Source: Pseudomonas alloputida (lineage in GTDB: Bacteria > Pseudomonadota > Gammaproteobacteria > Pseudomonadales > Pseudomonadaceae). From it: a DNA stretch of 64,000 nucleotides. The notes beneath the pieces were generated by a model that was not told where the DNA came from, made no database searches, and worked only from the letters and a program-made list of their open reading frames with translations. Within the stretch, counting starts at the first letter, position 1. Every line of letters starts with the position of its first letter. The stretch is taken from NCBI RefSeq assembly GCF_021283545.2, contig NZ_CP128540.1, forward strand, positions 2,329,501 to 2,393,500, in the 5' to 3' direction. Positions 5,812 to 60,236 of the stretch are shown piece after piece. The translations under genes were made by a program, and so were the position numbers.

Positions 5812-7173
5812 TCAAGGTTTTTCGGTAGTGCTCGGTTGGCGAGCGGCGGGTTCTGTGGAAGAAGACGCGGCAGCATGAAGCTTGTCGGTAATCTGCTTGG
5901 CCAAGGCATGGTAAAGCGAGACCGGAGACACCCATCCAGAGATGGCCGCCGCCATCAGTGTCGCGGCCAACATGGGAATGGCCAGGTCCGGGCTGTGTGT
6001 CAGTTCAAGCACGATGACCGAGGCGGTCAGTGGCGAGCGTGTCACACCGGCCAGGTATGCGCCCATGCCAAGTAGTGCGCCTGCCTGAGGGTCAACATCG
6101 GGCAGCAAGCTCAACAGCGGCGCAAAGGCGGCGCCGATGCTCAGCGAAGGCGAAAAGAGCCCGCCTGGAATCCCGGAAAGATAGGACGCGACGTTGGCCA
6201 GAAACTTCCACAGGAGAAAGCTTGTGTCCGTGATCGGCTGCCCCTCCAGCAACGCACGCGTTTCTTCATACCCGGTGCCGAATACATGATTGCCAGAGAC
6301 GAGCCCCAAGGTGGCCAGCAGCAACCCACAGGTGGCAGCAAAGCGCACTGGATAGCGTCCGCGTAACTTACAGACCTGGCCGAGTATGCCCTTGTCGGTG
6401 GGCAGCACAAGCTTGGCGTAAAAACCACCCAGCAGCCCGCCCAGCACTGCACAGGCAGGAACGACGCTCCAGCCCCAGTCCACCGGCATCCGACCGCTGA
6501 TCTCGCCAAAGTAGGCGTAATGCCCCATCAGCCCCAGCGTCACGACTCCGCCGATCAGCACCGCAGTGAGCACCAAGCCACTGAAACGTTGCTCGAACGT
6601 GCGGCTCAATTCCTCAATGGCAAAGACTACCCCCGCTAACGGTGTATTGAAGGCTGCCGCAATACCCGCAGCGCCTCCGGCTAGCACCAGGCCAGCGATG
6701 GTGCGCCGGCCGTGCAGGCCTAAACGTCGGCCAAAGGAATAGAGCACTGCGGCGCCGATGTGGACGGTCGGGCCTTCCCGGCCAACCGAACCGCCGACCA
6801 GCAGGGCGCCCAGCGTCAGGCTCATGCGTGCTGCAGCCACAGGGAGCGAGAGTAATCGGGCGCGCAGCCGGCGAGAGGGCATTTCCAGGGCGGCGATGAC
6901 TTGGGGGATGCCGCTACCCTTGGCATTTTCAAACCATCGTTGCGTCAGATAAGCCAGGGCCGCGAAACCCAGCGGAGTGATGAGAAGAGGTGACCAGGGT
7001 GCCCATTCCAGCAAGCGCTTGAACGAAGCGAACGCCGCGTCGGCTAGCCAGGCGAAAGCCAGCGCAACGAGCCCCACCAGCAATGCCCCGATCCAGAACG
7101 CCAGTCGCTGACGCCATTCTCGCCAGCGTGAACGGCGGGGGAGTGAAGGTGCAGGTCGGGTAGGGTCGGACAT
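5812..7173 (-). CDS. ClC-family chloride channel / H+-Cl- exchanger
   Basis: A 453-residue integral membrane protein with the three ClC chloride-pathway motifs: GSGIP at residues 86-90, GREGPTVHIG from 131 (the glutamate being the gating residue) and GIPGGLFSPSL near 335. The HALAKQITDKLH tail lacks CBS domains, as in ClcA-type bacterial proteins. Such proteins move Cl- in exchange for H+ and help in acid or osmotic stress. The start is ambiguous between 7182 and 7173; neither has a strong ribosome site. It sits beside NhaA and a BCCT transporter. Confidence 0.9.
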   Translation of the reverse strand: MSDPTRPAPSLPRRSRWREWRQRLAFWIGALLVGLVALAFAWLADAAFASFKRLLEWAPWSPLLITPLGFAALAYLTQRWFENAKGSGIPQVIAALEMPSRRLRARLLSLPVAAARMSLTLGALLVGGSVGREGPTVHIGAAVLYSFGRRLGLHGRRTIAGLVLAGGAAGIAAAFNTPLAGVVFAIEELSRTFEQRFSGLVLTAVLIGGVVTLGLMGHYAYFGEISGRMPVDWGWSVVPACAVLGGLLGGFYAKLVLPTDKGILGQVCKLRGRYPVRFAATCGLLLATLGLVSGNHVFGTGYEETRALLEGQPITDTSFLLWKFLANVASYLSGIPGGLFSPSLSIGAAFAPLLSLLPDVDPQAGALLGMGAYLAGVTRSPLTASVIVLELTHSPDLAIPMLAATLMAAAISGWVSPVSLYHALAKQITDKLHAAASSSTEPAARQPSTTEKP

Positions 7174-7309
7174 TGTCCACACATGGCTGACTTGGAAAGC
7201 CGTGAGTATGGCGTGTTTTCCCGCACAGGCCTACCCGACACAGGTTGTAGCCGCACCGGGAGTGGCGATCCGCTTGCCCAACTGCAAGGGATCGCCAGTC
7301 CGGAATTGG

Positions 7310-8671
7310 CTAGGTGGGCGAACCGGCTTTGGTAGCAGACGCTGCGCTGCGCATGCTCCACACCCCCCAGGTCAACCCCAGCACGGCTGCGATCAACGAC
7401 GCGGATAGCACACCGAGTTTCGCGGCCCCAAGTGAGCCAGGGTCGACGAACGCGAGGTTGGCGATGAAGATCGACATGGTGAAACCGATGCCGGCCAGCA
7501 GCCCGACCAGCATGATGCTACGCCAGTTGACCTCGGCGGGAAGCACGCACCAGCCCAGGCGGACCATCAGCCAACTGACGCTGACGATGCCCAAGGGCTT
7601 TCCTGCAACCAGGGCGACAGCGACGGCGATCATGACCCACTGGGGGCCTTCTGCGGACAGGTCGACGCCCGAAAGGCTGACCCCGGCGTTGGCCAAGGCA
7701 AACACCGGCATGATGCCGAAGGCTACCCAGGGGTGCAGGGTGCCTTGCATGCGCACTACCGGCGGCAGCAGTTCGCGCTGGGCCAGGCGCAGTCGTTTCA
7801 ACGGGTCCATGAGGTCGCTGGCATCTTGCTCAGGCGCTTTGGCGCGCCCCAGCAATTCGCCGGTGAAGCGGGTAATGGCGTCCAGTGGGCGCTCACGCAT
7901 CGGCATTGCGGTGACAGGTGTCATCAGGCCCAGCACGACGCCTGCGAGGGTCGGGTGGGCGCCGGTCAACAAGATGCCCAGCCAGACGATCGCACCGGGA
8001 ATGACATAGGCGTAGGCTGAACCCACTCCGATCTTCTGAAGCCCGATCACCATTAGCAGGCCGATCACTGCAACGCCGAAGCCGGTGTAATCAAGGCCGC
8101 CTGAGTAGAAGAACGCGATGATCAGGACTGCGATGATGTCATCGATGATTGCCAGGGCGAGGAGGAATACACGTACGTTGGACGGGATCGACTTGCCGAG
8201 CAGGGCCAATACGCCCACCGCAAAGGCGATATCCGTCGCCGTTGGCACGGCCCAACCTTGTTGGTCTGCTGGCGCGTGACCAAAACTCAGGTAGAGGAGT
8301 GCGGGTACCGCTACGCCGCCGACAGCGGCTGCCATGGGAAGCGTGGCTTGACGCAGGCTGGACAGTGCACCTTCGTGGATCTCGCGGCGGATCTCCATGC
8401 CCACGACCAGGAAAAAGATGGTCATCAGGCCATCATTGATCCAGAAATGCAGGGACTGCGAATAGACATGCGAGCCCACGCCGAACGTCAACGGGGTATG
8501 CCAAAGGGCTTCATAACTGTCGGCAGCCGGGGAATTCGCCCAGATCAGGGCAGCGACTGCGGCAATCAACAGAACGATGCCGCTGACCGCTTCAATGTGC
8601 AAAAAGCGTTCAAGGTTGGCGAAGGCGCGCTCGGCCAGTTTCTGGGCGCGAGGTAATTCTTGTTTATGCAT
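7310..8671 (-). CDS. nhaA: Na+/H+ antiporter NhaA
   Basis: 453 residues, NhaA family. The signature TATDIAFA (residues 144-151) and the paired aspartates in [10 protein letters not shown] (177-178) correspond to the ion-binding Asp133 and Asp163/164 of E. coli Nha[24 protein letters not shown] is also characteristic. The protein exports Na+ or Li+ in exchange for protons and supports pH and salt tolerance. The start at [10 protein letters not shown] is chosen because the 44 residues upstream do not look like NhaA and a GGGAG site precedes this ATG. It is transcribed divergently from the BCCT gene. Confidence 0.93.
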
Positions 8672-47337: not shown

Positions 47338-47411
47338 GGCCGAGTAGCAAAGTGGTTATGCTCCGGATTGCAAATCCGTCTACGCCGGTTCGATTCCGAC
47401 CTCGGCCTCCA
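47338..47411 (+). tRNA. tRNA-Cys (GCA)
   Basis: Acceptor arm GGCCGAG pairs with CTCGGCC, discriminator T and encoded CCA follow. The anticodon loop ATTGCAAAT gives anticodon GCA, and the T-arm is CCGGTTCGATTCCGA-like. U73 is typical of tRNA-Cys. It is complete and serves as the integration site of the island. Confidence 0.96.
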
Positions 47412-47455
47412 CCATTCGAAAGCCCCGCAGATTAACGTCTGCGGGGTTTTTCTTT
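47364..47455 (+). repeat. attL: 92-bp direct repeat, left copy
   Basis: Identical over 92 bp to 60124-60215. It spans the tRNA-Cys 3' half from the anticodon stem, CCA end and the downstream terminator up to TTTTTCTTT. This is the classic product of integrase-mediated insertion into a tRNA gene. Confidence 0.95.
47422..47454 (+). terminator. tRNA-Cys terminator
   Basis: CCCCGCAGA and TCTGCGGGG form a 9-bp stem followed by TTTTTCTTT, directly after the tRNA. The same hairpin is duplicated at the right end of the island (60182-60214). Confidence 0.9.
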
Positions 47456-47475
47456 GTGCGAGAAAAAGACGAAGT

Positions 47476-47511: not shown

Positions 47512-47814
47512 CTATTTTGTGGGGCTGACGACCTCGCCAACGCGGCGGTAAACGCGCTTTGTAATCTCTTCCTTGGAGTGCCCCAGCAGCCTGCTGGCGT
47601 GCCCGATGTCCTCGATTTCCGACGCTGCCTTCGGCCTAATGTCACGGAACTGGAATTGCCTGACCTTCGCAGCCAGGTCGGTATTTCCATCTGCGGTGAG
47701 CTTGCGTGCAGCCTTGTCTCGTGCTTCGCTGAATCGGTTTCTCAGCATCTCCCAGCTCATGCGTAGGCCTGAGTCGTTGGTGATCAGTCGCGAATTGCGC
47801 ACCCGCCGTATCAA
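47512..47814 (-). pseudogene. Tyrosine integrase, C-terminal remnant
   Basis: About 100 residues. FQFRDIRPKAASEI is the box I region; GHASRLLGHSKEEITKRVYR holds the HxxR-like and LLGH motifs and the nucleophile Tyr. The N-terminal two-thirds are absent: upstream, near 47800, the sequence switches to a phage endolysin tail on the opposite strand. The island therefore cannot encode its own full integrase. Confidence 0.85.
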
Positions 47815-47881
47815 TGGTGGCCTGAATGGGTTGAAAGATCGCCAGGCGCTCTATAAGCGTGCGCTTGAGGTGCTGCAGTAA
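47803..47881 (+). pseudogene. Endolysin (GH19-type) C-terminal remnant
   Basis: The frame ends TRRINGGLNGLKDRQALYKR followed by ALEVLQ and TAA. RRINGG.NGL.DRQ..Y.RA is the characteristic end of phage GH19 lysozymes. The stop overlaps the Rz start (TAATG), the normal arrangement of a lysis cassette. Only about 26 codons survive before the junction with the integrase remnant. Confidence 0.7.
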
Positions 47882-48435
47882 TGCCGCTGAATTGGCGTAT
47901 CGCGCTTCTGGCAGCTGCGGTCGGACTCTATGCCGGCGGGCGTGGGGCCTGGGTCTGGCAGGCCAGCGAGTACGGAAAGCAGCTGGCTGAGCAGGCCGCA
48001 GGTTATGTCCAGCAGTTGGCGGACAGAGATCGGGTTCATGGTCGTGAACGTGAGGAGGCTGCAGCTGCAGCCTTTGAGCAGTTGGCAGAACAGAAAACTC
48101 AGCGAAAAGACCTGGAGGAACGCCTGCAGGAGCAGGGCAAAAAACACTGGAAGGAGATGAACGATGCACAACAGATTCAAGATCGCCTGCGTGACAGGCT
48201 GGCTACTGCTGACTTGCGGTTGTCAGTCCTTGTCGACGCCGGAGTCTTTGCCGCCCCGGGTTGTGACGGTGGGGTGCGAGAAGCCTCCGGCACCGGAGGC
48301 GTGGTTCATGGAGCCGTTCGCGCCGGACTTGACCCAGCGCATGCTCAACGAATTGTCGGCATCACCGACGACGGTGACCGAGGACTGATCGCACTGCAGG
48401 CCTGCCAGGCCTACGTCCGCGAAGTCACCAAATGA
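47881..48435 (+). CDS. Rz-like inner-membrane spanin
   Basis: 184 residues. N-terminal signal anchor (MPLNWRIALLAAAVGLYAGG), then a long alpha-helical coiled-coil rich in Glu, Gln and Ala, typical of Rz/i-spanin. It encloses an Rz1 gene in the +1 frame. Part of a remnant prophage lysis module; without holin and endolysin it is probably non-functional. Confidence 0.82.
   Translation: MPLNWRIALLAAAVGLYAGGRGAWVWQASEYGKQLAEQAAGYVQQLADRDRVHGREREEAAAAAFEQLAEQKTQRKDLEERLQEQGKKHWKEMNDAQQIQDRLRDRLATADLRLSVLVDAGVFAAPGCDGGVREASGTGGVVHGAVRAGLDPAHAQRIVGITDDGDRGLIALQACQAYVREVTK
48164..48388 (+). CDS. Rz1-like outer-membrane lipoprotein, nested in Rz
   Basis: 74 residues wholly inside the Rz gene in the +1 frame. 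FKIACVTGWLLLTCGCQSLS has a lipobox-type LTCGC, and the mature part is proline-rich (PESLPPR, EKPPAPEAW). The embedded arrangement is diagnostic of Rz/Rz1 spanin pairs. Confidence 0.8.
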   Translation: MHNRFKIACVTGWLLLTCGCQSLSTPESLPPRVVTVGCEKPPAPEAWFMEPFAPDLTQRMLNELSASPTTVTED

Positions 48436-48586: not shown

Positions 48587-49381
48587 ATGACCTCTCCAAT
48601 TATTCCTTGGATGGGTGGCAAACGCCGTCTGGCCGACCGCTTGATCCCCCTCTTTCCCCCTCATGAGTGCTACGTTGAAGTCTTCGCCGGCGGTGCCGCG
48701 TTGTTCTTCATGCGTCCCCAGCCCGCCCCCGTGGAGGTGCTGAACGATCTCAACGGTGACCTGGTCACCCTCTACCGCGTTGTACAGAACCACCTGGAGG
48801 AGTTCGTGCGCCAGTTCAAATGGGCGCTCAGCTCTCGGCAGATCTTTGAGTGGCAGAAGATGACGCGCCCTGAAACCTTGACCGACATCCAGCGTGCGGC
48901 GCGGTTCTTCTACCTGCAGCAGCATGCGTTCGGCGGCAAGGTCACCGGGCAGACGTTCGGTACCGCCACCACGGGGCCGGCCATCAATCTGCTGCGCATT
49001 GAAGAGAACCTGTCCGCCGCCTGGCAGCGTCTAGCCGGTACCTACGTCGAAAACCTGTCCTGGCTCGACTGTGCCGAGCGATACGATCGAGCGCATACTT
49101 TCTTCTACATGGACCCACCTTACTGGCAAACTGCAGGCTATGGCGTGGACTTCCCGTTCGAAGAGTACAAGCGCATGGCCGACTTCATGCGGTGCTGCAA
49201 GGGCAGGGTGATGGTCAGTATTAACGATCACCCGGACATCCGGCGCGCCTTCGACGGCTTCCACTTCGAGCGCCTGGATATCCGTTACAGCAATACAAAC
49301 CAGCGGCAAGGCAAGGCCGAAGTGACGGGGGAGCTGGTGATCATGAACTGGGAGCCTTCATTTTTGGAAGGGTTGTTTTAA
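48587..49381 (+). CDS. D12-class DNA adenine methyltransferase
   Basis: 264 residues. IIPWMGGKRRLADRLIPLFP is the N-terminal GGK motif, YVEVFAGGAALFFM the SAM-binding motif I, and FFYMDPPYW (DPPY at 176-179) the catalytic motif. It methylates adenine N6, presumably as a phage-type orphan Dam protecting or modifying DNA. No cognate restriction enzyme is adjacent, although the DUF262 protein and the Vsr-like nuclease are in the same island. Confidence 0.92.
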   Translation: MTSPIIPWMGGKRRLADRLIPLFPPHECYVEVFAGGAALFFMRPQPAPVEVLNDLNGDLVTLYRVVQNHLEEFVRQFKWALSSRQIFEWQKMTRPETLTDIQRAARFFYLQQHAFGGKVTGQTFGTATTGPAINLLRIEENLSAAWQRLAGTYVENLSWLDCAERYDRAHTFFYMDPPYWQTAGYGVDFPFEEYKRMADFMRCCKGRVMVSINDHPDIRRAFDGFHFERLDIRYSNTNQRQGKAEVTGELVIMNWEPSFLEGLF

Positions 49382-49444: not shown

Positions 49445-50356
49445 TCAACCTCCGTAGTATTGTGTAAGCGCTGTGGTCAACACTGAGGCCGCTACTTGGG
49501 AGGGGATCTCCCATGCAGGTGTGCCTGCTTTGGCGATCATGCTGCCTAACCAAGTGCGTACTTTTTTACCAAAGCCCTCGCGATTATGTTCGGAGTCGTC
49601 TGTTTTGATGGCTTGTTCAAGCTCATTTAAGTCGCTATCTGTAACATTGTGCTTTCGAAGTTCAGTCAGGAGTGAAGTTATGTCATTCTTTATTATTGAG
49701 TTGCTGCCGATGGTGGAGCTGTTTTGCTTGCCAATGGCAAGGCTTATTTGAGCGCCGTCACCAAATACTGCACCCTTGAACATGGCGTTAAGCCCTTCGA
49801 TTTTTGGTATTGGGGAGGTGATGTCTTGAGCGGAGTTTTCGGGTATGTTATCTGAGAGGGTTAAAAGAAAGTCTAAGAGTCTAGATCTTGCTTCGTTTAC
49901 GATCTGATCGAACACGCCCGCGTTAAAAATACCCCAGGCGTTGACAATGGTGTACGATGAGTCGAAGTCAGCGGTTAGAAAGCCATACAGCCGCTGGTCA
50001 ATGTTTGCCTGAAGTTCAGTTTTGTTTTTAACAAAGCCCTCGATTACGGCTATGCTTTGATCAAACCTCCTAGTGAGGAATTTTTCGCGAAATTGCTCTG
50101 GAACTCCGTAAGTCGGGAGTTTCATATTGCTGTAGCGTCGCGCAGAATTTTCGATATTTCCGTATGGGACTATTTGCGTGGTTCTGTAGCTGGGGACTTC
50201 CTCGATGTTGTCGTATCCCTGGATCTCGTTCTTCACCCACTTAGCAAACTCTGGATCTTTTAACTTGTGAGCGATGATCTGGGCTTTGATAAAAGCTCCG
50301 GCGAGTGGGACGTTTGTGTCGGAAAGTAAATTTATAGTTTCGTCTATGAGTTGCAT
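49445..50356 (-). CDS. AbiTii-domain protein (abortive infection type)
   Basis: 303 residues. The first 60 residues match the AbiTii domain (LIDETINLLSDTNVPLAGAF, AQIIAHKLKDPEFAKWVKNE then IQGY). The middle and C-terminal regions are variable; near the end VRTWLGSMIAKAGT is a short conserved type. AbiTii proteins come from plasmid and island phage-resistance systems, but the mechanism is unknown. Base composition is clearly more AT-rich than the surrounding chromosome. Confidence 0.8.
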   Translation of the reverse strand: MQLIDETINLLSDTNVPLAGAFIKAQIIAHKLKDPEFAKWVKNEIQGYDNIEEVPSYRTTQIVPYGNIENSARRYSNMKLPTYGVPEQFREKFLTRRFDQSIAVIEGFVKNKTELQANIDQRLYGFLTADFDSSYTIVNAWGIFNAGVFDQIVNEARSRLLDFLLTLSDNIPENSAQDITSPIPKIEGLNAMFKGAVFGDGAQISLAIGKQNSSTIGSNSIIKNDITSLLTELRKHNVTDSDLNELEQAIKTDDSEHNREGFGKKVRTWLGSMIAKAGTPAWEIPSQVAASVLTTALTQYYGG

Positions 50357-50554
50357 TTTTTGCGTCCTCCAATTTTTATGGGGTGTCTGGATTCGCGACT
50401 CAATCCCAACCTATGTTCGTGCACATATAGCCGGCAAAATTTAAAAGCCGCCCAAGCCATGATGCTGTTGGGTTTGGGCGACTTATTGCTTACCCTGTTG
50501 CCGCACAGTCTGGGCATGACCGCATTACAGTATCATTTAGGGTCACGCAAATCG

Positions 50555-52420
50555 TTACGGCTTTTCCCAGATTTCGAATGCGACTGCCTTGTACGCATCA
50601 GCTCGCTTGGTGATATGGTCTTTAGAGAAGTCAGGTATGCCTGAAAGGGTGATTTTTGGTTTTGCTGCCAAGTACTTAGTCAGTACAGGGTTGTGCTTGT
50701 AGTAATCTTCACAGAGTGACTGCGTGAGGATATTTTCTGCATGATATGCGTGCAATTTGTTCTTGTAAGAATTGTCTTGTAGGGATCGATTGCGGGAGCG
50801 CGGAAGTAATGCGAGGGCACCAATTCGATTGCGATATTCTGAGTAGTCCTTCGCATCAGTGAAGCCATGGTCTCCAGGAAGTGAGGTCACGTCATAAGCA
50901 TCTTTTAATAGGTGCTCAATATCGAAGGTCTTCATACCGCGATCGCGCTGCCAGTATGTTTGGAAGCCAACTTTGTTGGTGAGTGTGAGCTCGTCTTCTA
51001 AATGGCTTGCAATGCGTGCAAGGATGTAAAGCATATCGGAGCGATCGCTTTTGGTGTATGTAAATTGATCAAGTCTGTCAATGCTGTTTTGGTATTTTTG
51101 CCACTCACCTTGAATGTAAGTTAATAATTCAGGAAGTTTTTTGTCTCTAACTTCCTTTGTTAGGGTAAAGGCGATGTCTTTCAGGTTGTCGTAGTTGTTT
51201 GTTTTTCCTTCAATTGTTCTTGAGGTTAAGATCAGGTCTATGTATTTTGAGATCAAGCTGATTTTTGTTTGCCAGACGTCCGTTGTGTCATCTGGATTGA
51301 TAGCCGCCAACATTATCATGGGTTGTGAGCTGAAGCGGCGGCTTGCGTTATAGAATAAGCACTCAAATTCCGGTGTGAAACTATCTTCGCATTTTCGGAT
51401 GAAGACGTGTATCTCAATAAATTTTGTGATGAACTCTTTGGCGAATTTTGTATAGTCGTCTGCGTTGAGTAAGCCTATTCGGTTGGTGTTATCTTCAAAC
51501 CAGCGATGGTACTCATCGCCAATTATGTCGAAGTCTCCGGCTACATCTCCCTTGTTTTTGCCGCGAATAGTGTTGGCCCACTTTGCGCGGAAGAAGTTTT
51601 TGAAAAATGAAGAGTCTTCTTCTGCATCAATGTCTTTCAGTTTTCGAATCGACTCAACCCAAGCTTTGTGGCATGCATGACTGTCGTTAGTGTCTCTGAT
51701 TTTGGAAAGGATTAGCCCCTTCAGTAAGTCAATAGGGCCAAGCCGAAGTCCGCGATCATTCATCGTGACGAAGACTCGATGCGCCTCTGATTCACTTTCG
51801 ACAGAGATATCAATTAATTGAACGCGCTCTCTTACATAGTCGATAAAGTACGCAATATTTTCTTGGACTTTATCATCTAGCACGGCGTCCGTTGATCTGA
51901 GCGCTTCGATGATTTTTTTGTCGCCGTCATCAAGCTTTTGGATGTCCTCTGCTTTAACCAGTGCTTCGCTTGTTGTTATCGTTTCATCAAGATATAGGTC
52001 AAATATTTGTCTTCTGCTTTCAGAGAACTCTATAGAGTAGTCTTTTGTGCCGTAATTGACGTTGCCCAGTAAAACCCCTATGTCGGCCACCGATTTAACA
52101 TCGTTGTCTATGCGATATCGCTCTAGATAAGCTAAAAGTAGAAATGTAGATGTTAGTCGTTGCTGGCCGTCAATTAGGGGCTTTTTGCCATTTGCTTCTT
52201 TTGAAGTAATTATCGAACCGAGGAAATATGGTAAATAGTTCCCTACTTCTTGGCGGCCGTGAGTAGGGTCGAAATCTAACAGGAATGTGCTCTGAATATC
52301 GTTTAGAAGTTCAGTGAAGTGACGGCTTTCCCATTTGTATTCTCGTTGAAAATATGGCAGGGAATAATGGCTTTGGAAGCAGGTTTTAACCGTCTGGGTA
52401 GATGGATTCACATATGCCAT
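50555..52420 (-). CDS. DUF262/DUF1524 (GmrSD-like) protein
   Basis: 621 residues starting MAYVNPSTQTVKTCFQSHYS. The DUF262 N-domain shows YFQREYKW (23-30) and LIDGQQRLTS (DGQQR at 84-88), the nucleotide-binding motif. The C-terminal DUF1524-like HNH region shows FDIEHLLKDAY and RNRIGALALLPRSRNRSL. Proteins of this architecture form type IV restriction systems (GmrSD, BrxU, SspE-like) that use NTP to recognise modified or foreign DNA. Single-chain form; AT-rich; probable phage defence. Confidence 0.88.
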   Translation of the reverse strand: MAYVNPSTQTVKTCFQSHYSLPYFQREYKWESRHFTELLNDIQSTFLLDFDPTHGRQEVGNYLPYFLGSIITSKEANGKKPLIDGQQRLTSTFLLLAYLERYRIDNDVKSVADIGVLLGNVNYGTKDYSIEFSESRRQIFDLYLDETITTSEALVKAEDIQKLDDGDKKIIEALRSTDAVLDDKVQENIAYFIDYVRERVQLIDISVESESEAHRVFVTMNDRGLRLGPIDLLKGLILSKIRDTNDSHACHKAWVESIRKLKDIDAEEDSSFFKNFFRAKWANTIRGKNKGDVAGDFDIIGDEYHRWFEDNTNRIGLLNADDYTKFAKEFITKFIEIHVFIRKCEDSFTPEFECLFYNASRRFSSQPMIMLAAINPDDTTDVWQTKISLISKYIDLILTSRTIEGKTNNYDNLKDIAFTLTKEVRDKKLPELLTYIQGEWQKYQNSIDRLDQFTYTKSDRSDMLYILARIASHLEDELTLTNKVGFQTYWQRDRGMKTFDIEHLLKDAYDVTSLPGDHGFTDAKDYSEYRNRIGALALLPRSRNRSLQDNSYKNKLHAYHAENILTQSLCEDYYKHNPVLTKYLAAKPKITLSGIPDFSKDHITKRADAYKAVAFEIWEKP

Positions 52421-52564
52421 GTGGTGGCGATCCTTGTGCTGGTGGCTAGAAGCCATCAGGCTAGCACGTGAAGTCTTCTGGCAGCCATCCCTCCTGAGAC
52501 AACAAATGAGCCGCGGATTTCTCGAGTTTAAGCATACTGGTGAAGCTTCGGGGGAGCTGAAGCA

Positions 52565-52666
52565 TCACCCTTTGAAATTGAGGAAAATGACAGGCCGCCG
52601 AGGCTGGCGAAGTCCATCACGTAGGGGGACCAGTTCTCCGGCAGAGAGACTGTATTGCGAGCGCAT
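52565..52666 (-). CDS. Possible 33-residue peptide after the HTH gene
   Basis: MRSQYSLSAGELVPLRDGLR then QPRRPVIFLNFKG, starting 6 bp beyond the stop of the HTH gene, with GGA 10 bases ahead of the ATG. No homolog is recognised. Strong basic character. May be chance. Confidence 0.25.
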   Translation of the reverse strand: MRSQYSLSAGELVPLRDGLRQPRRPVIFLNFKG

Positions 52667-52672
52667 ATCTAG

Positions 52673-53038
52673 CTATTCCAGTAGGTGGTAGTCGGAGCGA
52701 CTGCGAGGGTTTTTCGTCGATCCGCGACAGTTCTCGCCTCTGAGTGGAGGATGGCCAGGGAAGAACAATAGCCCCTCTACCTCAAATGCAAATGCCACTG
52801 CCTGCATGCTGATTGAATTGAGGTTTCCCCCTGACTCAAGCCGTTGGATTGCCTGAGGAGAAACGCCGGACACTGAGCTCAGATCCTCAATGCTCCAATC
52901 CAACAGCGCGCGAGCTGGGCCGCAATGGATGGCAGCAAAACTCAATGGCTGATGATCCACGATCCACTCGACTACTTCGATCTGGTACTCGTCGAGATTG
53001 AGGCGAAGGGGTTGCCGGGTAGAAGTGTGAGAAGTCAT
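52673..53038 (-). CDS. XRE-like helix-turn-helix protein
   Basis: 121 residues. RALLDWSIEDLSSVSGVSPQ then AIQRLESGGNLNS is a Cro/CI-type helix-turn-helix, followed by AVAFAFEVEGLLFFPG, a common XRE end. The ATG at 53038 is favoured over the GTG at 53047 because AAAAGGTG precedes it. It could regulate the DUF262/AbiTii genes transcribed in the same direction behind it. Confidence 0.75.
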   Translation of the reverse strand: MTSHTSTRQPLRLNLDEYQIEVVEWIVDHQPLSFAAIHCGPARALLDWSIEDLSSVSGVSPQAIQRLESGGNLNSISMQAVAFAFEVEGLLFFPGHPPLRGENCRGSTKNPRSRSDYHLLE

Positions 53039-53177
53039 GACAGTCACCTTTTGCTGTATGAATGAACAGTATAAGGCGCGCTAATGGGTTGGGAAAGGGA
53101 GGCTTGTTTTAGGGCAAATTTAGGGCAGAACCCGGGCCGGATGAGGCCGCAATGAGCCTTCATGACCAAGGTTGGTG

Positions 53178-53236
53178 GCCGTATTTTCGGGCCTAAAGCG
53201 GCCTCCTGCGCAGAGCGGGCGGGTTCAAATCCCTAT
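53178..53236 (+). repeat. T-arm-like direct repeat, left copy
   Basis: Ends with CGGGCGGGTTCAAATCCCTA (53216 on; 21 bp identical to 57868-57888). Preceding blocks GGCCT and GCGGCCT are also shared. The GGTTCAAATCC core looks like a tRNA T-arm. The two copies enclose the reverse transcriptase, the 68-residue protein and the IS66. Confidence 0.7.
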
Positions 53237-53343
53237 TTCTCGGCGAGGAAGGATCAGTGCACGGAGTGGCGCTCCCTCCGAGGGGGAACTCAAAATAAAT
53301 AACCAATTCGCCAGTCAAAACCTACGAGCGGAGGCCTGCGTCG

Positions 53344-53384
53344 AAAAAGCGCCCAGTACCCGGAATTGTAGCTGAGCGCTTTTT
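53344..53384. terminator. Terminator downstream of the reverse transcriptase
   Basis: AAAAAGCGC and GCGCTTTTT form a 9-bp stem around a 23-nt loop, symmetric so it can act on both strands. It lies 63 bp beyond the reverse transcriptase stop. Confidence 0.65.
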
Positions 53385-53447
53385 CTTGTTCACACTGCAG
53401 GGGGCTATTAATTAAAATATGTCAGGGCAGCCATGCATTTGTAATGC

Positions 53448-55130
53448 TTATCCAAAAAGAGAAAGTGGTTTCCGCGGTGGTCGCGGCGCTAAGCATCTTT
53501 GCATCCACTGGTCGAAACTAACCGGTTGGCGCGGTTGCTGGAAAGGATTTGAAATCACGTGGCAGTATTGCTCGGCATGGCTTGATTTATCGGCAGGGTA
53601 TAAAAATGCCACATCATATTTTTTTAAAATATCGAATGTGTTCTCTGTTTGGTAAGGGTTGTCGATGTGGTTGTGTAGAAATAATTCATAAAGCAATAGC
53701 CAGTTTTGGTCCAGCTCGTAAAGGGTTGCGTTACTGATAATTCCTAGCGCATGCTCTTTGGCTTGCCCGATAGAGTTGTTGAATTTGCATAGCATTGTTA
53801 TGGCTGCGCAATCTTTTGAGTTGAGAACTTGCTTGATTTGCTCCTCGCCAGGCTCGCGGCTCAGTTGTTTGATATAGTAAAGTGCCCAGCACATTCCGTC
53901 TGATCGGCGATGTAGAGCGTTTGCCGTGATGATTTTGTTAAGTTTCTCCTGTGTCGCATCTACATCGTATTGATCTGATCTGGCGTCAATTTTCTCGAGT
54001 AATGGAAGTAGAGCAGGGAAATGCCAGGCAAGGTTTAAGGTGTAGTTGAAGACGGCAACCGCGGTTTCATCAATTGCTCGAGGAGCAATAGTGCTAATAG
54101 CATATCTGAGCACGCTTCCGTCTGGTGTTTCTTTGTTTAGTCGGACTGCAAAGTCAAGAAAATTGATGGCCTCGCTTGTGCTTAGGGAAAGAGCTCCGTC
54201 GCTACTTGTGCGTTTGGGTAACGCATTGTTTAGGATAGATGTCCATGGGTCTTGCAAGGGTTCGGGTAGTTCTTTTATGGTCGTTTTGTTTAAATTGAGA
54301 GATAGCCTGTAGCTCGCAAGTTCATGTCCTAAGATTCGAATGAAGTCTTGCGCCTCGTCATGGGATTCGCAGTATGCGGTGTAGTCATCGATGTATCGTG
54401 TGAAGATGAAGTTTTGTTTTTCAAGTATCTTGTCGATTTTGCATAGTATTATTTCTACGGCAATATTAGATGCTGCTGGTCCTATAGGGAGTCCAGAGGT
54501 TTCGTTTCTTTTCGTGTTTCTGAAAGCGGTGTCAAGAATACTACTCCAGTGTTTGGGTTTCGCAAAAAGGTTCTTCTTTGCTTCGTCATATCCTTGGATA
54601 GCCCATTCTAGAGAGTGGGTGTAGACTGATCCGAAGCAGTTTGATATGTCGGTGTGGGCGCGAAATCGTTTTCCAAAAGTGTCTTCAAGTGCGGCGCTGG
54701 TTCGAGCTTCATGACTCTCATAGTTCATGATGATCATGCGTCCGTCGATATGCTCTTCTATTTTGATCGCGCTTTGATTGCTGGAGGTTAAATTTGATAT
54801 CTCCTCATGGTTTTCCATGAGTCTCGCATGCAGTCTTGCGTAGGCAAGCGGATGTAATAGGCTCAGTGTCCGAGATACATTGTTGTATCGTGTTACGCGA
54901 TATTCAACGAGATCGAACCAGTGTTGCTTACGAGGATCCTGGACAGCCATTTTTGATAGTTCGACGGCAATTTCCGGCGTGAAGCGTCTTGTTGTGAAGC
55001 ACGGAGGAAGTTCGCTTGCCGAATCTTTTTGATTGGGGAAGTAATTCCATCTCGTCAAAGCTTCGGAGAAATGTCGCTCAGAGGATAGAGCTAATGGGAT
55101 ATTAGAGAAGGGACTGGTGAATTCTTTCAA
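53448..55130 (-). CDS. Defence-associated (DRT/UG-type) reverse transcriptase
   Basis: 560 residues. RT motifs in order: motif A TDISNCFGSVYTHSLEWA (160-177, metal-binding Asp161), motif B GLPIGPAASN (213-222), motif C FTRYIDDYTAYC (YIDD at 246-249), then SLNLNKTTIKELP. The YTHS...WA extension of motif A is a feature of the unknown-group/Abi-type RTs rather than group II introns, which show DI..AFD and maturase domains absent here. Residues 350-560 form an all-helical C-terminal extension, as in DRT proteins that bind a non-coding RNA. The TTG start is chosen because AAGGAAA stands 6-7 bases ahead. AT-rich. I cannot assign a DRT subtype from sequence alone. Confidence 0.88.
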   Translation of the reverse strand: MKEFTSPFSNIPLALSSERHFSEALTRWNYFPNQKDSASELPPCFTTRRFTPEIAVELSKMAVQDPRKQHWFDLVEYRVTRYNNVSRTLSLLHPLAYARLHARLMENHEEISNLTSSNQSAIKIEEHIDGRMIIMNYESHEARTSAALEDTFGKRFRAHTDISNCFGSVYTHSLEWAIQGYDEAKKNLFAKPKHWSSILDTAFRNTKRNETSGLPIGPAASNIAVEIILCKIDKILEKQNFIFTRYIDDYTAYCESHDEAQDFIRILGHELASYRLSLNLNKTTIKELPEPLQDPWTSILNNALPKRTSSDGALSLSTSEAINFLDFAVRLNKETPDGSVLRYAISTIAPRAIDETAVAVFNYTLNLAWHFPALLPLLEKIDARSDQYDVDATQEKLNKIITANALHRRSDGMCWALYYIKQLSREPGEEQIKQVLNSKDCAAITMLCKFNNSIGQAKEHALGIISNATLYELDQNWLLLYELFLHNHIDNPYQTENTFDILKKYDVAFLYPADKSSHAEQYCHVISNPFQQPRQPVSFDQWMQRCLAPRPPRKPLSLFG

Positions 55131-55417
55131 TTAAATTTCCTTATTTACCCGCTTCGCTATTCGTTAATAACAACGGAGATAGAGAGTGGTACTCTGCTAC
55201 AGGATCGTCTTGTTGTCGAGTCGCGCACAACGCTGAATCAGCATCATCCCCCAAGCTGTCGGGCGCATTTTCTTCAGATTTGCTAGGAGCGGGTGAGGCC
55301 ATAAAAAATATAAGGCGATGACAAGCAGCACAGCGCAAGCGATGGTTGGTACAAATTTGGTACGAGCAGATTGGTTTTGGCCTAGAGGCCTTTTAGATTA
55401 AGGCTTTGTGAAAAAGC
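55131..55417 (-). ncRNA. Candidate structured leader / template RNA of the RT
   Basis: Upstream of the RT and bounded by a terminator at 55418-55440, this 287-bp stretch must carry the RT promoter and leader. It holds an AT-rich TATATT box (about 55305-55310), dyads GGCCTAGAGGCC and AGGCTTT...AAAGCCT, and a 53-codon open frame (55302-55141) that stops 10 bp before the RT. In characterised DRT systems a non-coding template RNA lies directly upstream of the RT. Whether this is such an RNA or a small protein gene is undecided. Confidence 0.35.
55141..55302 (-). CDS. Possible 53-residue protein upstream of the RT
   Basis: ATG frame MASPAPSKSEENAPDSLGDD then ADSALCATRQQDDPVAEYHS and LSPLLLTNSEAGK. 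Acidic N-terminal half. It ends 10 bp before the RT TTG start, so co-transcription is likely if it is expressed. No ribosome site is seen, and the frame may be part of a structured RNA instead. Confidence 0.3.
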   Translation of the reverse strand: MASPAPSKSEENAPDSLGDDADSALCATRQQDDPVAEYHSLSPLLLTNSEAGK

Positions 55418-55440
55418 CTGCCCAATCCATCATCGGGCAG
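55418..55440 (-). terminator. Terminator of the 68-residue gene
   Basis: On the minus strand CTGCCC-GATGATGGATT-GGGCAG is followed by GCTTTTTC. It lies 43 bp after the stop at 55484 and separates that gene from the RT transcript. Confidence 0.6.
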
Positions 55441-55483
55441 CCGTCGCGCTGCAGCTGTTGGCTGGGTCGAGAGGGTAGCAGAT

Positions 55484-55690
55484 TCAGGACCTTAGGCGCT
55501 CGATCCCAACCGAGATCGCCTCCGCATGCAAGTCCAGTGCCGTCAGGGCCATCATGACGTTGTCATGGATATGAATCGAACCACGCTGACTAACCCAGAG
55601 CGACAGCTCTTCAAGGGCTGCTCTGATGGCTGTTTGATTCATTAGCAGCAATTCCATGGTGTCTGCTGCGATCGCTGCTTTCTCGTCCAT
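55484..55690 (-). CDS. Hypothetical 68-residue protein
   Basis: MDEKAAIAADTMELLLMNQT then AIRAALEELSLWVSQRGSIH and MMALTALDLHAEAISVGIER. Helical, soluble, no known domain; the type recurs on Pseudomonas mobile DNA as far as I can recall. The ATG has AGGAGC 8 bases ahead, so the upstream extension is rejected. The IS66 insertion begins 81 bp upstream and may have removed its promoter. Confidence 0.65.
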   Translation of the reverse strand: MDEKAAIAADTMELLLMNQTAIRAALEELSLWVSQRGSIHIHDNVMMALTALDLHAEAISVGIERLRS

Positions 55691-55855
55691 AAGCGGGCTC
55701 CTGGCATCGTAGGTTAAGGGAAAATCGACAAATCCTGGGGGCGGTTGAGAGCGTAATAGGCCATTTGATTGTAAGGGATCCATCATCCCCACATTCCAAC
55801 CGTCCACCTGATTCCCGATGCTGTGCTCCCGATTTCTTTCTGGAGCCAGCCCGCC

Positions 55856-56215
55856 ATGATGCGCCCCGACAGCAAAGTCGAAAAAGTCTACCTCTACCCC
55901 AAGCCCGTGGACTTTCGAAAGTCCATCGACGGCCTCACTGCCCTGGTCGAACTGGACATCAAGGTCGCCGTGTTCGACCCGGTACTTTTCGTCTTCCTCA
56001 ATAAAGCCCGTAACCGCATCAAGGTGTTGTATTGGGAGCGCAACGGCTTCTGCCTTTGGCTCAAGCGCCTCGAAGCCGAGCGTTTCAAAACTTCACCCGA
56101 CGCGACCGACGAAGCTATCGTACTGACCGTCCAGGAACTGAATTGGCTACTCGACGGTTTCGATCTCTGGCGCAACCGTCCGCATCAGGTTTTGACTCCT
56201 CGTTTCGTCGCCTGA
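55856..56215 (+). CDS. tnpB: IS66 accessory protein TnpB
   Basis: 119 residues. MMRPDSKVEKVYLYPKPVDF then RKSIDGLTALVELD and VLFVFLNKARNRIKVLYWER are the TnpB (Orf2) signature. It is needed for IS66 transposition, mechanism unclear. The ATG at 55856 has TGGAGCC ahead; a longer frame from 55823 runs into the terminal repeat and is rejected. Confidence 0.95.
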   Translation: MMRPDSKVEKVYLYPKPVDFRKSIDGLTALVELDIKVAVFDPVLFVFLNKARNRIKVLYWERNGFCLWLKRLEAERFKTSPDATDEAIVLTVQELNWLLDGFDLWRNRPHQVLTPRFVA

Positions 56216-56233
56216 CCGGGTATAATCCGGGCC

Positions 56234-57766
56234 ATGATTTCAGTGCCCGATAACCTTCCTGACGACCCTGCCGCGCTCAAACTACTGCTTGCGCAGTTGT
56301 TGGCCGAGCGCACGGTCGACAAAGGTCAGATCGTCGACCTTAAAGAACAGGTCAAGCTGCTGCGTGACCGATTATTCAATCGCAAGTCCGAGCAAACCGT
56401 CGAGTCCAACACGCCCCAACTGGCGTTGTTCAATGAACCCGAAAGTCAGTGGGTACCTACCGCTGATGATGCCGACGAAGAAGTTGTTGCGCCAAGCAAG
56501 CAGCGCGGCAAACGCAAGCCACTGTCGGCTGACCTGCCACGCATTGAAGTCATTCATGACTTGCCCGAGCACGAACTGACTTGCGCCTGTGGTTGCCGCA
56601 AACACGTGGTTGGCGAGCAAACCAGCGAACAACTCGACATCGTGCCGATGCAGATCCGTGTGCTTAAACACGTACGCAAAATCTATGGCTGCCGTGGCTG
56701 CGAAACCGCGCCGGTCACCGCTGACAAGCCGGCCCAATTGATTGAAAAGAGCATGGCCAGTCCCAGCGTGCTGGCGATGTTGCTAACCACCAAGTACGTC
56801 GATGGCCTGCCGCTGCACCGCTTCGAAACGGTGCTGAACCGACATGGTATCGAGATCCCCCGGCAAACCCTGGCCCGCTGGGTCATCCAGTGCAGCGAAC
56901 ACTTTCAGCCACTGCTGAACCTGATGCGTGACCGCCTGCTGGAAAGCCCGGTGATCCATTGCGATGAAACTCGCGTGCAGGTGCTCAAAGAGCCGGATCG
57001 TGATCCGACCAGTCAATCCTGGATGTGGGTGCAGGCCAGTGGCCCGCCTGATCGACAAGTCGTGCTGTTCGATTACACCACCAGCCGCGCGCAGGAGGTG
57101 CCGCTGCGCCTGCTGGAGGGCTATCGCGGTTACGTGATGACCGATGATTACGCCGGTTACAACGCGTTGGCGCTACAGCCGGGCGTTGAACGACTGGCGT
57201 GCATGGCGCATGTCCGGCGTAAATTCGTCGAAGCGCAGAAGGTGCAGCCTAAGGGCAAGAGCGGTCGCGCCGATGTTGCGCTGACGATGATCAACAAACT
57301 GTATGGCATCGAACGCGACCTCAAGGATGCCAGCGATGAACAGCGATTCATCGGTCGTCAGGAACGAAGCCTGCCGATCCTTGAGCAGTTGAAAAGTTGG
57401 CTCGACAAGACGCACTCACAGGTGACACCGCAAAGCGTACTGGGCAAGGCGGTGCTTTACCTGGCAAACAACTGGAACCGCCTGGAGCGGTATGTCGAGG
57501 CGGGCCACCTGCCGATCGACAACAACCTGGCAGAGCGGGCCATAAAGCCGTTTGTGATCGGGCGCAAAGCTTGGCTGTTCAGTGACACGCCCAAGGGAGC
57601 CACGGCTAGCGCGCAGATCTACAGCTTGGTCGAAACCGCCAAGGTCAACGGCCAAGAGCCCTATACGTGGCTGCGCCACGTCCTGGAGCGACTGCCGCAC
57701 GCCTCATCGGTAGCAGACTACGAAGCGCTGCTGCCATGGAACTGTTCGCCAGAGATGCCACGGTAA
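56234..57766 (+). CDS. tnpC: IS66 transposase TnpC
   Basis: 510 residues, full length. N-terminal leucine-zipper-like segment ([20 protein letters not shown]), zinc-finger region ([23 protein letters not shown]), then the DDE domain: [34 protein letters not shown] and [19 protein letters not shown]. It performs IS66 transposition. It lies 18 bp after tnpB. Confidence 0.96.
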
Positions 57767-57829
57767 CTTTGGCTTCCACCTTGTGGTAGGTGGGGTTCAT
57801 GGATCGGTTACATTTGATTAGGCGAGGAT

Positions 57830-57888
57830 ACCCGTTTTCCTGGCCTCTGGCGGCCTGGCGAGCAAGCCGGGCGGGTTCAAATCCCTAT
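57830..57888 (+). repeat. T-arm-like direct repeat, right copy
   Basis: Second copy of the repeat at 53178-53236, same orientation: TTTTC, GGCCT, GCGGCCT and the 21-bp block ending in TTCAAATCCCTAT are conserved. Confidence 0.7.
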
Positions 57889-57952
57889 CCATGACTGCCA
57901 ACGTGTCTATAGTGGTAGCGGAGGCAATAGATGATGAGAAGGCATAGAGTCC

Positions 57953-58075
57953 ATGATCATGCCGGGTGGTCCGTTGGTACTTGAGGCTGCGGAGGCGGTA
58001 AGTCGATACCACGTGGCCCAAGCTGCAGGAAGTCCGGCCCAGGAAGTGGAGCGTTGTCGACTTTTGGATCGGTAG
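57953..58075 (+). CDS. Short paralog of the 66-residue island protein
   Basis: 40 residues: MIMPGGPLVLEAAEAVSRYH then VAQAAGSPAQEVERCRLLDR. It aligns with the first 40 residues of the protein at 59634-59834 (GEPLIQKAIDALREYHQAQD, then APADEVERLQL) and stops early, so it may be a truncated copy. Family unknown. Confidence 0.5.
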   Translation: MIMPGGPLVLEAAEAVSRYHVAQAAGSPAQEVERCRLLDR

Positions 58076-58421
58076 AGGGCAGTCGCGATCGTCAGCTATC
58101 GACCCATTATAGCGGACGCTCACAGCCAGCTATTATGGGCTGATCTCGGTCGATAGAACATCTAGCCATTAAGATGTTGGTTTATGTCAAGCCGAGCTTT
58201 AGATTGTTAAGTCTAAGTTGGATTAAAATTAAGGAAAAGCGTTGGCAGTGCTGAAGACTTTCTCTGTGGAATGCAGTATATTCAAGCAGGGCGCGTTGCA
58301 ATTGTTATCTTGCATGGCGCAAACTCGATTCTGATTAGCGAGGTTAATCTAGCCAAAGTCATTGTTAGTTGGGAGGATTTTGTTATTTTGGCCACCCTTC
58401 TGGATTGAGTTGTAGCTAAAT
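58076..58421. other. AT-rich stretch downstream of the nuclease candidate
   Basis: No gene is supported. A motif CAGCTATCGACCCATTATAG at 58093 is the inverse of a similar one at 59509 (see findings). The remainder is AT-rich without visible structure. Confidence 0.45.
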
Positions 58422-59288
58422 CTAACCTGCCTCGTTGAGTCTATATTCGATAGCTCTGTACAAGGGGACTGAGCCAATGCCCAAGCAAAGTTTGCATGTG
58501 GAGTTTTGCGAAGAACATAAATTGCAGTCTATCGTTTCGAAGTCTTCGATATTCACGCTCGCAGCTAAAGACGCTTTTACTCGCCCAACGCCATGACATA
58601 TGCTACAGAACTCCCCAGCTAGAACACAGCATCCATTACAAATCGGGCAGACTACATTATCCCCACCCTTGAGCAACTGCTTTGGATTGGAGGCCTTCAA
58701 TACAGCCCGCTGAAGTTTTTCAGCGTCAGAAATCCTCCTGTCGAGATATTTTTTTATATGCTTTATAAAATACTCAGGATCTTTTTTCCACTCATCCGGC
58801 GCGATTCGGATTACTTGTATACCTTCACTGGATGCTATGTTCATATCTCTTTTGTAAGCTAGCTTCACTCCGCTTTCTATGAAGTGAGAAGGATACCCGT
58901 CGTACTCTATGCCGACTGCAGCAATTCTCAATTTGTCCTCGCCGACTGACCGGAATAGCTCTAACAATAAATCTATTGACCAAGCACGTGTTTTGGGCTT
59001 TTCATTCTGTACTTTAAATTGCGGACTGATCTTGACCGTATGTCCAAGTCCTCTTTTCCCTGAAAGTATTACTTTTCTAGGTGAATCTTGATGTTCAATT
59101 ATCTCGATTGGTGAGAATTGCTTTATTATCTGTGCAATTACAGCAATTTCCGCTTGGGATGTTTCGCTTTCGCCCTGCAAGCTTATGAGGGCAACTGATG
59201 GTTCATCACCAATCATAAGCTTAATTTTTTCATACAGTGCGCGCTGATTTTTGCTAAATCTATTTTTTATATATTCAAATTTACTCAT
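58422..59288 (-). CDS. Putative Vsr-like nuclease with DnaJ-type zinc fingers
   Basis: 288 residues, AT-rich. Middle region: IAAVGIEYDGYPSHF...KRDMNIASSEGIQVIRIAPDEW, which follows the E-x-DG-x-x-H ... D-x-x ... L/S-x-x-G-x-x-V-x-R-I pattern of Vsr/DUF559-like PD-(D/E)XK nucleases. The C-terminal 80 residues carry CxxCxGxx repeats: CPICNGCC, CSICHGVG, CNLCSSQ and CKLCLGIG, as in the DnaJ zinc centre. The N-terminal 100 residues are unassigned. The combination suggests a DNA- or protein-guided nuclease in a defence island; activity is inferred only. Confidence 0.6.
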   Translation of the reverse strand: MSKFEYIKNRFSKNQRALYEKIKLMIGDEPSVALISLQGESETSQAEIAVIAQIIKQFSPIEIIEHQDSPRKVILSGKRGLGHTVKISPQFKVQNEKPKTRAWSIDLLLELFRSVGEDKLRIAAVGIEYDGYPSHFIESGVKLAYKRDMNIASSEGIQVIRIAPDEWKKDPEYFIKHIKKYLDRRISDAEKLQRAVLKASNPKQLLKGGDNVVCPICNGCCVLAGEFCSICHGVGRVKASLAASVNIEDFETIDCNLCSSQNSTCKLCLGIGSVPLYRAIEYRLNEAG

Positions 59289-59633
59289 GGCGATAAAATT
59301 AATCTTCGCAAATTAGTATTTATGATTGCATCCAAACTTTTGCTGATTCTTTTGTGTAAGCGTTCGCGCTTAGAAAACACACCCCAAATAACTAGCACAT
59401 ATAGATTATTATTGCAATTTGAAAATTATCTCTCAAGGGAGCAGTCGGCCGCCCCTGATTCTGCAGGTCCTCAGTGGCAGCTACTGGCCGTAAGCTGCTT
59501 GTGGTAAAGGACCGCTATGGGTCGTTAGCAGTCGTTGAGAGATCGTCAATCAGTCCGCTGCCAGCTGTTCGCACCCTACACTTGTTGTTTTACTGCTCTG
59601 GACTGGATAGTGCACAAGCGGACTTTAATTGGG
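59289..59633. other. Promoter region of the nuclease candidate and adjacent sequence
   Basis: 345 bp, AT-rich near 59300-59430 where the nuclease promoter must lie. It contains the motif copy ACCGCTATGGGTCGTTAGCA at 59511. No gene is supported. Confidence 0.45.
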
Positions 59634-60082: not shown

Positions 60083-60123
60083 CAAAGTAGCTCTAACATA
60101 TTGAAAATAAATAAAAAATCCTT

Positions 60124-60215
60124 CGGATTGCAAATCCGTCTACGCCGGTTCGATTCCGACCTCGGCCTCCACCATTCGAAAGCCCCGCAGATTAACGTCT
60201 GCGGGGTTTTTCTTT
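60124..60215 (+). repeat. attR: 92-bp direct repeat, right copy
   Basis: Identical to 47364-47455, including the tRNA-Cys 3' half, CCA and terminator hairpin. The preceding bases are not tRNA, so this is a partial tRNA only. Confidence 0.95.
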
Positions 60216-60236
60216 ATGGGTCGAAAAAAGGCAAGA

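Follow-up and report, generated by a model that had tools for sequence, protein, structure and literature searches.

The reverse transcriptase (RT) gene drt4, located at 53448..55130 on the minus strand of the 64,000-nucleotide stretch of Pseudomonas alloputida DNA that we analysed (contig NZ_CP128540.1, positions 2,329,501 to 2,393,500; hereafter the window), is almost certainly an intact antiphage gene of the DRT4 (UG15) family that a prophage-derived island carries as cargo. When the 560-residue protein was compared with the PADLOC profiles, Drt4 came out on top with 746.2 bits, and the top model from another family was Drt6 with 301.8 bits. In addition, the NCBIfam Drt4 equivalog matched at 631.8 bits against a curated cut-off of 450, and the protein stayed far below the respective cut-offs of the Drt2, Drt3a, Drt3b and Drt5 NCBIfam models. 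The original prediction, made from the DNA alone, had matched this RT to no named subtype and had ranked it as the best candidate in the window for a new system. The first statement was wrong, and the gene is a further example of an already characterised kind, DRT4, and essentially ordinary as a new-system candidate. Its description as a stand-alone UG/DRT-type RT, distinct from intron and retron RTs, was upheld by profiles, tree and structure comparison.

With the group II maturase model TIGR04416, the window RT scored 46 bits against a cut-off of 300, and the tree rows L042, L003, L004 and L005 scored 382-419; the retron RT model NF038233 gave 34.7 bits for the window RT against a cut-off of 235. 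An Rfam scan of 52000-58500 returned no family at E <= 1, so no intron or msr/msd RNA was matched, and the earlier statement that the locus has no intron, retron arrangement or maturase holds as far as tested. In the homologue search, the best 120 of 525 proteins were considered; by manual count 27 of these 120 carried NCBI names, and 21 of the 27 were named antiviral reverse transcriptase Drt4. The closest named homologue among the matches listed was that of Pseudomonas sichuanensis (P0002, 89% identical), and that of P. halotolerans (P0004) was 83% identical; both are Drt4 by their NCBI names, both have 560 residues like the window protein, and both align with it free of gaps, by substitutions alone. 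In a 42-row tree, the window RT fell into starred sets with its nearest relatives, nested among DRT4 rows. Outside DRT4 lay group II intron RTs (L042 from the same genome, L003, L004 and L005), named by NCBIfam profiles, and a UG17 RT, Drt6 and AbiP2 RTs, named by PADLOC. The profile search and tree placement that had been proposed as checks thus place the RT among DRT4 and not within the group II intron RTs. A 522-aa RT occurs at ten equal-scoring places in the same genome; a scan of one copy, L042, identified a group II intron RT.

The drt4 frame runs from 55130 to 53448 with a TTG start, an AAGGA element 5' of the start and no internal stops; the TTG start is supported by the relatives that are 83-89% identical and have the same length of 560 aa. 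The RT domain spans approximately residues 75-290, and RVT_1 matched residues 146-286 with 50.1 bits (cut-off 29.6). Residues 170-177 form the motif YTHSLEWA and residues 246-249 the motif YIDD. The predicted model is mostly helical from about residue 318 to 547 and has the RT plus helical C-terminal domain of the DRT4 fold. The frame, RVT_1, the alignment and the predicted model therefore agree with the 560-residue RT, YTHS..WA motif, YIDD centre and helical C-terminus read earlier from the letters. The catalytic residues D161, D248 and D249 are identical in all 132 rows of a homologue alignment, from which the window's own entry (P0001) and proteins outside 501-619 residues were excluded and in which some rows are duplicates (e.g. 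L023 = P0117). A probable drt4 transcription terminator was read by eye at 53342..53384 (minus strand; stem AAAAAGCGC..CAG / CTGGGCGCTTTTT); a terminator scan listed only a shorter stem overlapping it, and its 4 terminator-like matches were near shuffle level (mean 2.5).

Comparison with solved structures gave the same assignment. Structures titled DRT4/UG15 (9l9s, 9vdo, 9vdv) and the sequence matches 9ltm, 9luj and 21ou share 40-43% identity with the window protein over near full-length alignments, which end at residue 543-546 of its 560, and have the fold and the YIDD active site in common with it, the fold comparison being made with the predicted model. We hardly credit a DRT6-like or AbiK-like class 1 RT in place of DRT4. 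The overall fold is in common and the Drt6 and AbiK models do match, but they score far under Drt4 (145 bits for AbiK against 746); structure comparison gave Z of 35.4 for DRT4, 26.0 for DRT6 and 19.6 for AbiK, identity is 20% both to DRT6 (9wy8) and to AbiK (7r06, 7z0z), and the Drt6 rows L036 and L037 stand on a separate branch of the tree. It is also unlikely that the gene is a DRT4 remnant of a prophage that no longer functions. Scars in the island, namely an IS66-type element, a displaced attachment (att) site and direct repeats (see below), speak for this, yet the frame is full-length without stops, the catalytic residues are kept, and relatives at 83-89% identity have equal length. Several observations weigh against an intact DRT4 as island cargo. 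The main DRT4 node of the tree (30 rows) was moderately supported (84/89), and the tree tool flagged meeting long branches. The distant rows L034, L035 and L039 fell outside the main DRT4 group; L034 and L039, the two of these that were scanned, are named Drt4 by PADLOC, and L034 and L035 score under the NCBIfam Drt4 cut-off. A consensus scan listed no sigma-70-like promoter upstream of the RT, the 2 found in the region both lying downstream (shuffle mean 3.0). Finally, identity to the solved DRT4 proteins is no higher than about 40-43%, which leaves room for a different product and trigger.

We consider it very improbable that the RT belongs to a divergent or undescribed DRT subtype working with an upstream template RNA, as originally proposed. 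In favour of it, the RT stands alone, 353 bp from the next upstream gene, and DRT2, DRT3 and DRT9 do use non-coding RNAs (ncRNAs), according to a review (PMC13213688). However, family profiles, tree and fold all point to DRT4, and the leader does not behave like a template. The 287-nt stretch at 55131-55417 exists as described, but it folds with a z-score of +0.34 (127 of 200 shuffles as stable or more so), has no Rfam match and is little conserved, and its 5' part looks like a dusA-type end and also occurs in genomes without a DRT4 match. The remaining 213 bp matched only one of 20 distinct other DRT4 loci (BLAST, E <= 1), namely the nearest, L025 (84% protein identity), in two short stretches, one of 34 bp at the start codon and the other of 33 bp at about -92 to -60. 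For this comparison, 21 loci were reduced to 20 by merging L014 and L033, which resemble each other in identity and leader end; start codons were chosen by script. Fold, Rfam, conservation among DRT4 loci, a genus-wide DNA search and a plasmid search all yielded no evidence in favour of a template RNA in the leader, and an upstream template RNA for the window RT is not supported. We regard the DRT4-proximal part (55131..55343, minus strand), which showed no sign of a conserved RNA in BLAST against the other DRT4 loci, as probably the gene's own promoter region, with a putative ribosome-binding site. The 33-bp stretch common to the window and L025 looks promoter-like by eye; the consensus scan lists no promoter there. 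A 53-aa small open reading frame (ORF) in the leader (55302-55141) was dismissed, as the relative with 84% protein identity has no corresponding ORF in its leader. A terminator-like hairpin (55440-55418) overlaps the element-end part of the leader.

To characterise the gap upstream of drt4, we compared its 353 bp with 398 same-genus genomes and found seven matching besides its own. Drt4 matches at E <= 1e-100 were present in 9 of the 398 genomes, own included, and in none of the seven. Five of the seven matches cover one common stretch (window 55344-55437; 71-77% identity), and in L057 and L059 an open frame over it resembles the beginning of the window genome's DusA and stops shortly past MMDW. 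An intact dusA lies elsewhere in the same genome, at 4.33 Mb (identified as DusA by NCBIfam with 530 bits, cut-off 269), and its alignment with the window gave the core CCGATGATGGATTGG and, some 60 bases further along, the arm GTACCA...TTTGTACCA. The core was recognised through this comparison, not from published attachment-consensus letters. Islands and prophages integrate into the dusA 5' end via 21-bp attachment sequences, according to PMC4482086. From the genus matches, the alignment with the genome's own dusA and this published integration, 55344..55437 (minus strand) looks like the end of a dusA-targeting integrative element, displaced from dusA, with the core CCGATGATGGATTGG at 55422-55436 and a GTACCAAATTTGTACCAACC arm at 55344-55363. 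The lead is thereby closed: the supposed new system is of a known kind, and part of the region proposed as template RNA is the scar of a mobile element. As a caution, the intergenic space that precedes a DRT gene can represent an attachment site instead of an ncRNA.

The 12-base core ATGATGGAYTGG was present in 3 of the 20 distinct other DRT4 loci (L025, L052 and L053; a count without shuffled control). Both in the window and in L025, its nearest relative among the loci compared, DRT4 is preceded at a distance of about 300 bp by core and GTACCA arm; in the two viral contigs L052 and L053 the core lies 2-3 kb upstream. Five dusA-type ends lie outside DRT4 loci, and in three of them a PADLOC defence model matched a gene on the inner side: Shosta ShosA-like in L060, SIR2-like in L056 and DUF2971/PDC-S31 in L057. 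L058 has only about 110 bp of sequence on the inner side. We tentatively raise the possibility, itself somewhat doubtful on few loci and no control comparison, that the inner side of such ends is a recurrent defence-gene slot in the genus, through which DRT4 moves between prophages. L059 counts against it, with no PADLOC match in the two ORFs scanned on its inner side. A literature search on dusA with reverse transcriptase, defence and prophage found nothing on the subject, as judged by title and start of abstract. A dusA-adjacent defence slot, if true, would be a handle for finding more defence genes. Just outside the att scar of L025, at 6891-8577, are a GmrSD_N gene (PADLOC best NsnA, then PD-T4-2_A) and a HEPN-domain gene.

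In two reviews (PMC13213688, PMC13314766), DRT4 is described as a single-gene, template-independent enzyme that makes random single-stranded DNA (ssDNA), starts synthesis from a conserved tyrosine and turns toxic once the phage protein ORF55 shields 3' ends. According to a DRT3 preprint (PMC13174585), class 1 UG RTs carry an alpha-repeat domain and work independently of a template, and DRT4 belongs to the hexameric assemblies. By homology with published DRT4, six copies of the window protein would form a hexamer in which a conserved tyrosine would prime DNA synthesis; candidates are Y137, Y170 and Y481, kept in 132 of 132 rows, and Y30, kept in 130. Random-sequence ssDNA would be made without template or ncRNA. 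On infection, an ORF55-like DNA-binding protein of the phage would shield the 3' ends, toxic ssDNA would build up and growth would halt, and in this way the window DRT4 may act in defence.

The island that carries drt4 has one end at tRNA-Cys(GCA) (47338..47411, plus strand; ARAGORN). A repeat search found a 110-bp direct repeat with two matches in the whole genome: copy 1 (47358..47467) overlaps the 3' part of the tRNA, and copy 2 (60118..60227), 94% identical and 12,760 bp away, is the probable far island end. On the plus strand follow an Rz-like spanin, a phage lysis gene (47881..48435; phrog_2466, 3.5e-48), and a phage-type D12 adenine methyltransferase (48587..49381; PF02086; phrog_56, 2.4e-99). 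On the minus strand lie genes for an AbiTii-domain protein (49445..50356; PF18864, 3.8e-32), a GmrSD-type protein with N- and C-terminal domains (50555..52456; PF03235, 1.1e-32; PF07510, 7.4e-10) and an HTH_3 regulator (52673..53047; PF01381, 4.2e-6). IS66-type insertion sequence genes occupy 55823..57766 (plus strand), with a TnpB-like part (55823-56215) that matches plasmid genes annotated as IS66 TnpB and a 510-aa ORF (56234-57766) that we take to be the IS66 transposase. An ORF at 47512-47814 gave by eye the impression of an integrase fragment; no library named it, and it was set aside.

When 11 island proteins were searched by tblastn against 21 DRT4 loci (20 distinct, several with short flanks), the window's HTH, GmrSD and AbiTii genes were matched in 0 of the 21 within these flanks (E <= 1e-4). 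Matches were limited to three island proteins: in L053 the methyltransferase and Rz, and in L026 a 99-aa protein at 59535; another GmrSD_N gene is present near DRT4 in L025. In the viral contig L053, the dusA core, DRT4, methyltransferase (89% identical) and Rz (50%) have the window's order and relative orientation. The 0 of 21 for the neighbours is consistent with DRT4 being a single-gene system that the island carries as cargo. DRT4 was matched in 9 records of a phage collection, all below 60% identity and none over 80% of the query; among plasmids, 2 of 210 matching records cover 80%, the best at 43.7% identity.

A further direct repeat (53184-53236 / 57836-57888; 77% over 53 bp, final 20 bp identical) flanks DRT4, the att scar and the IS66-type element and has only two copies in a genome search. 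It is possibly a nested attachment site, and its sequence (CGGGTTCAAATCCC) resembles, we assume, a tRNA T-arm. A 288-aa protein (58422-59288) had no Pfam family; its C-terminal part gave a weak PADLOC match to PDC-M01B (1.3e-9). Within the island that holds DRT4, the AbiTii-domain protein adjoins the GmrSD-type protein (49445-52456).
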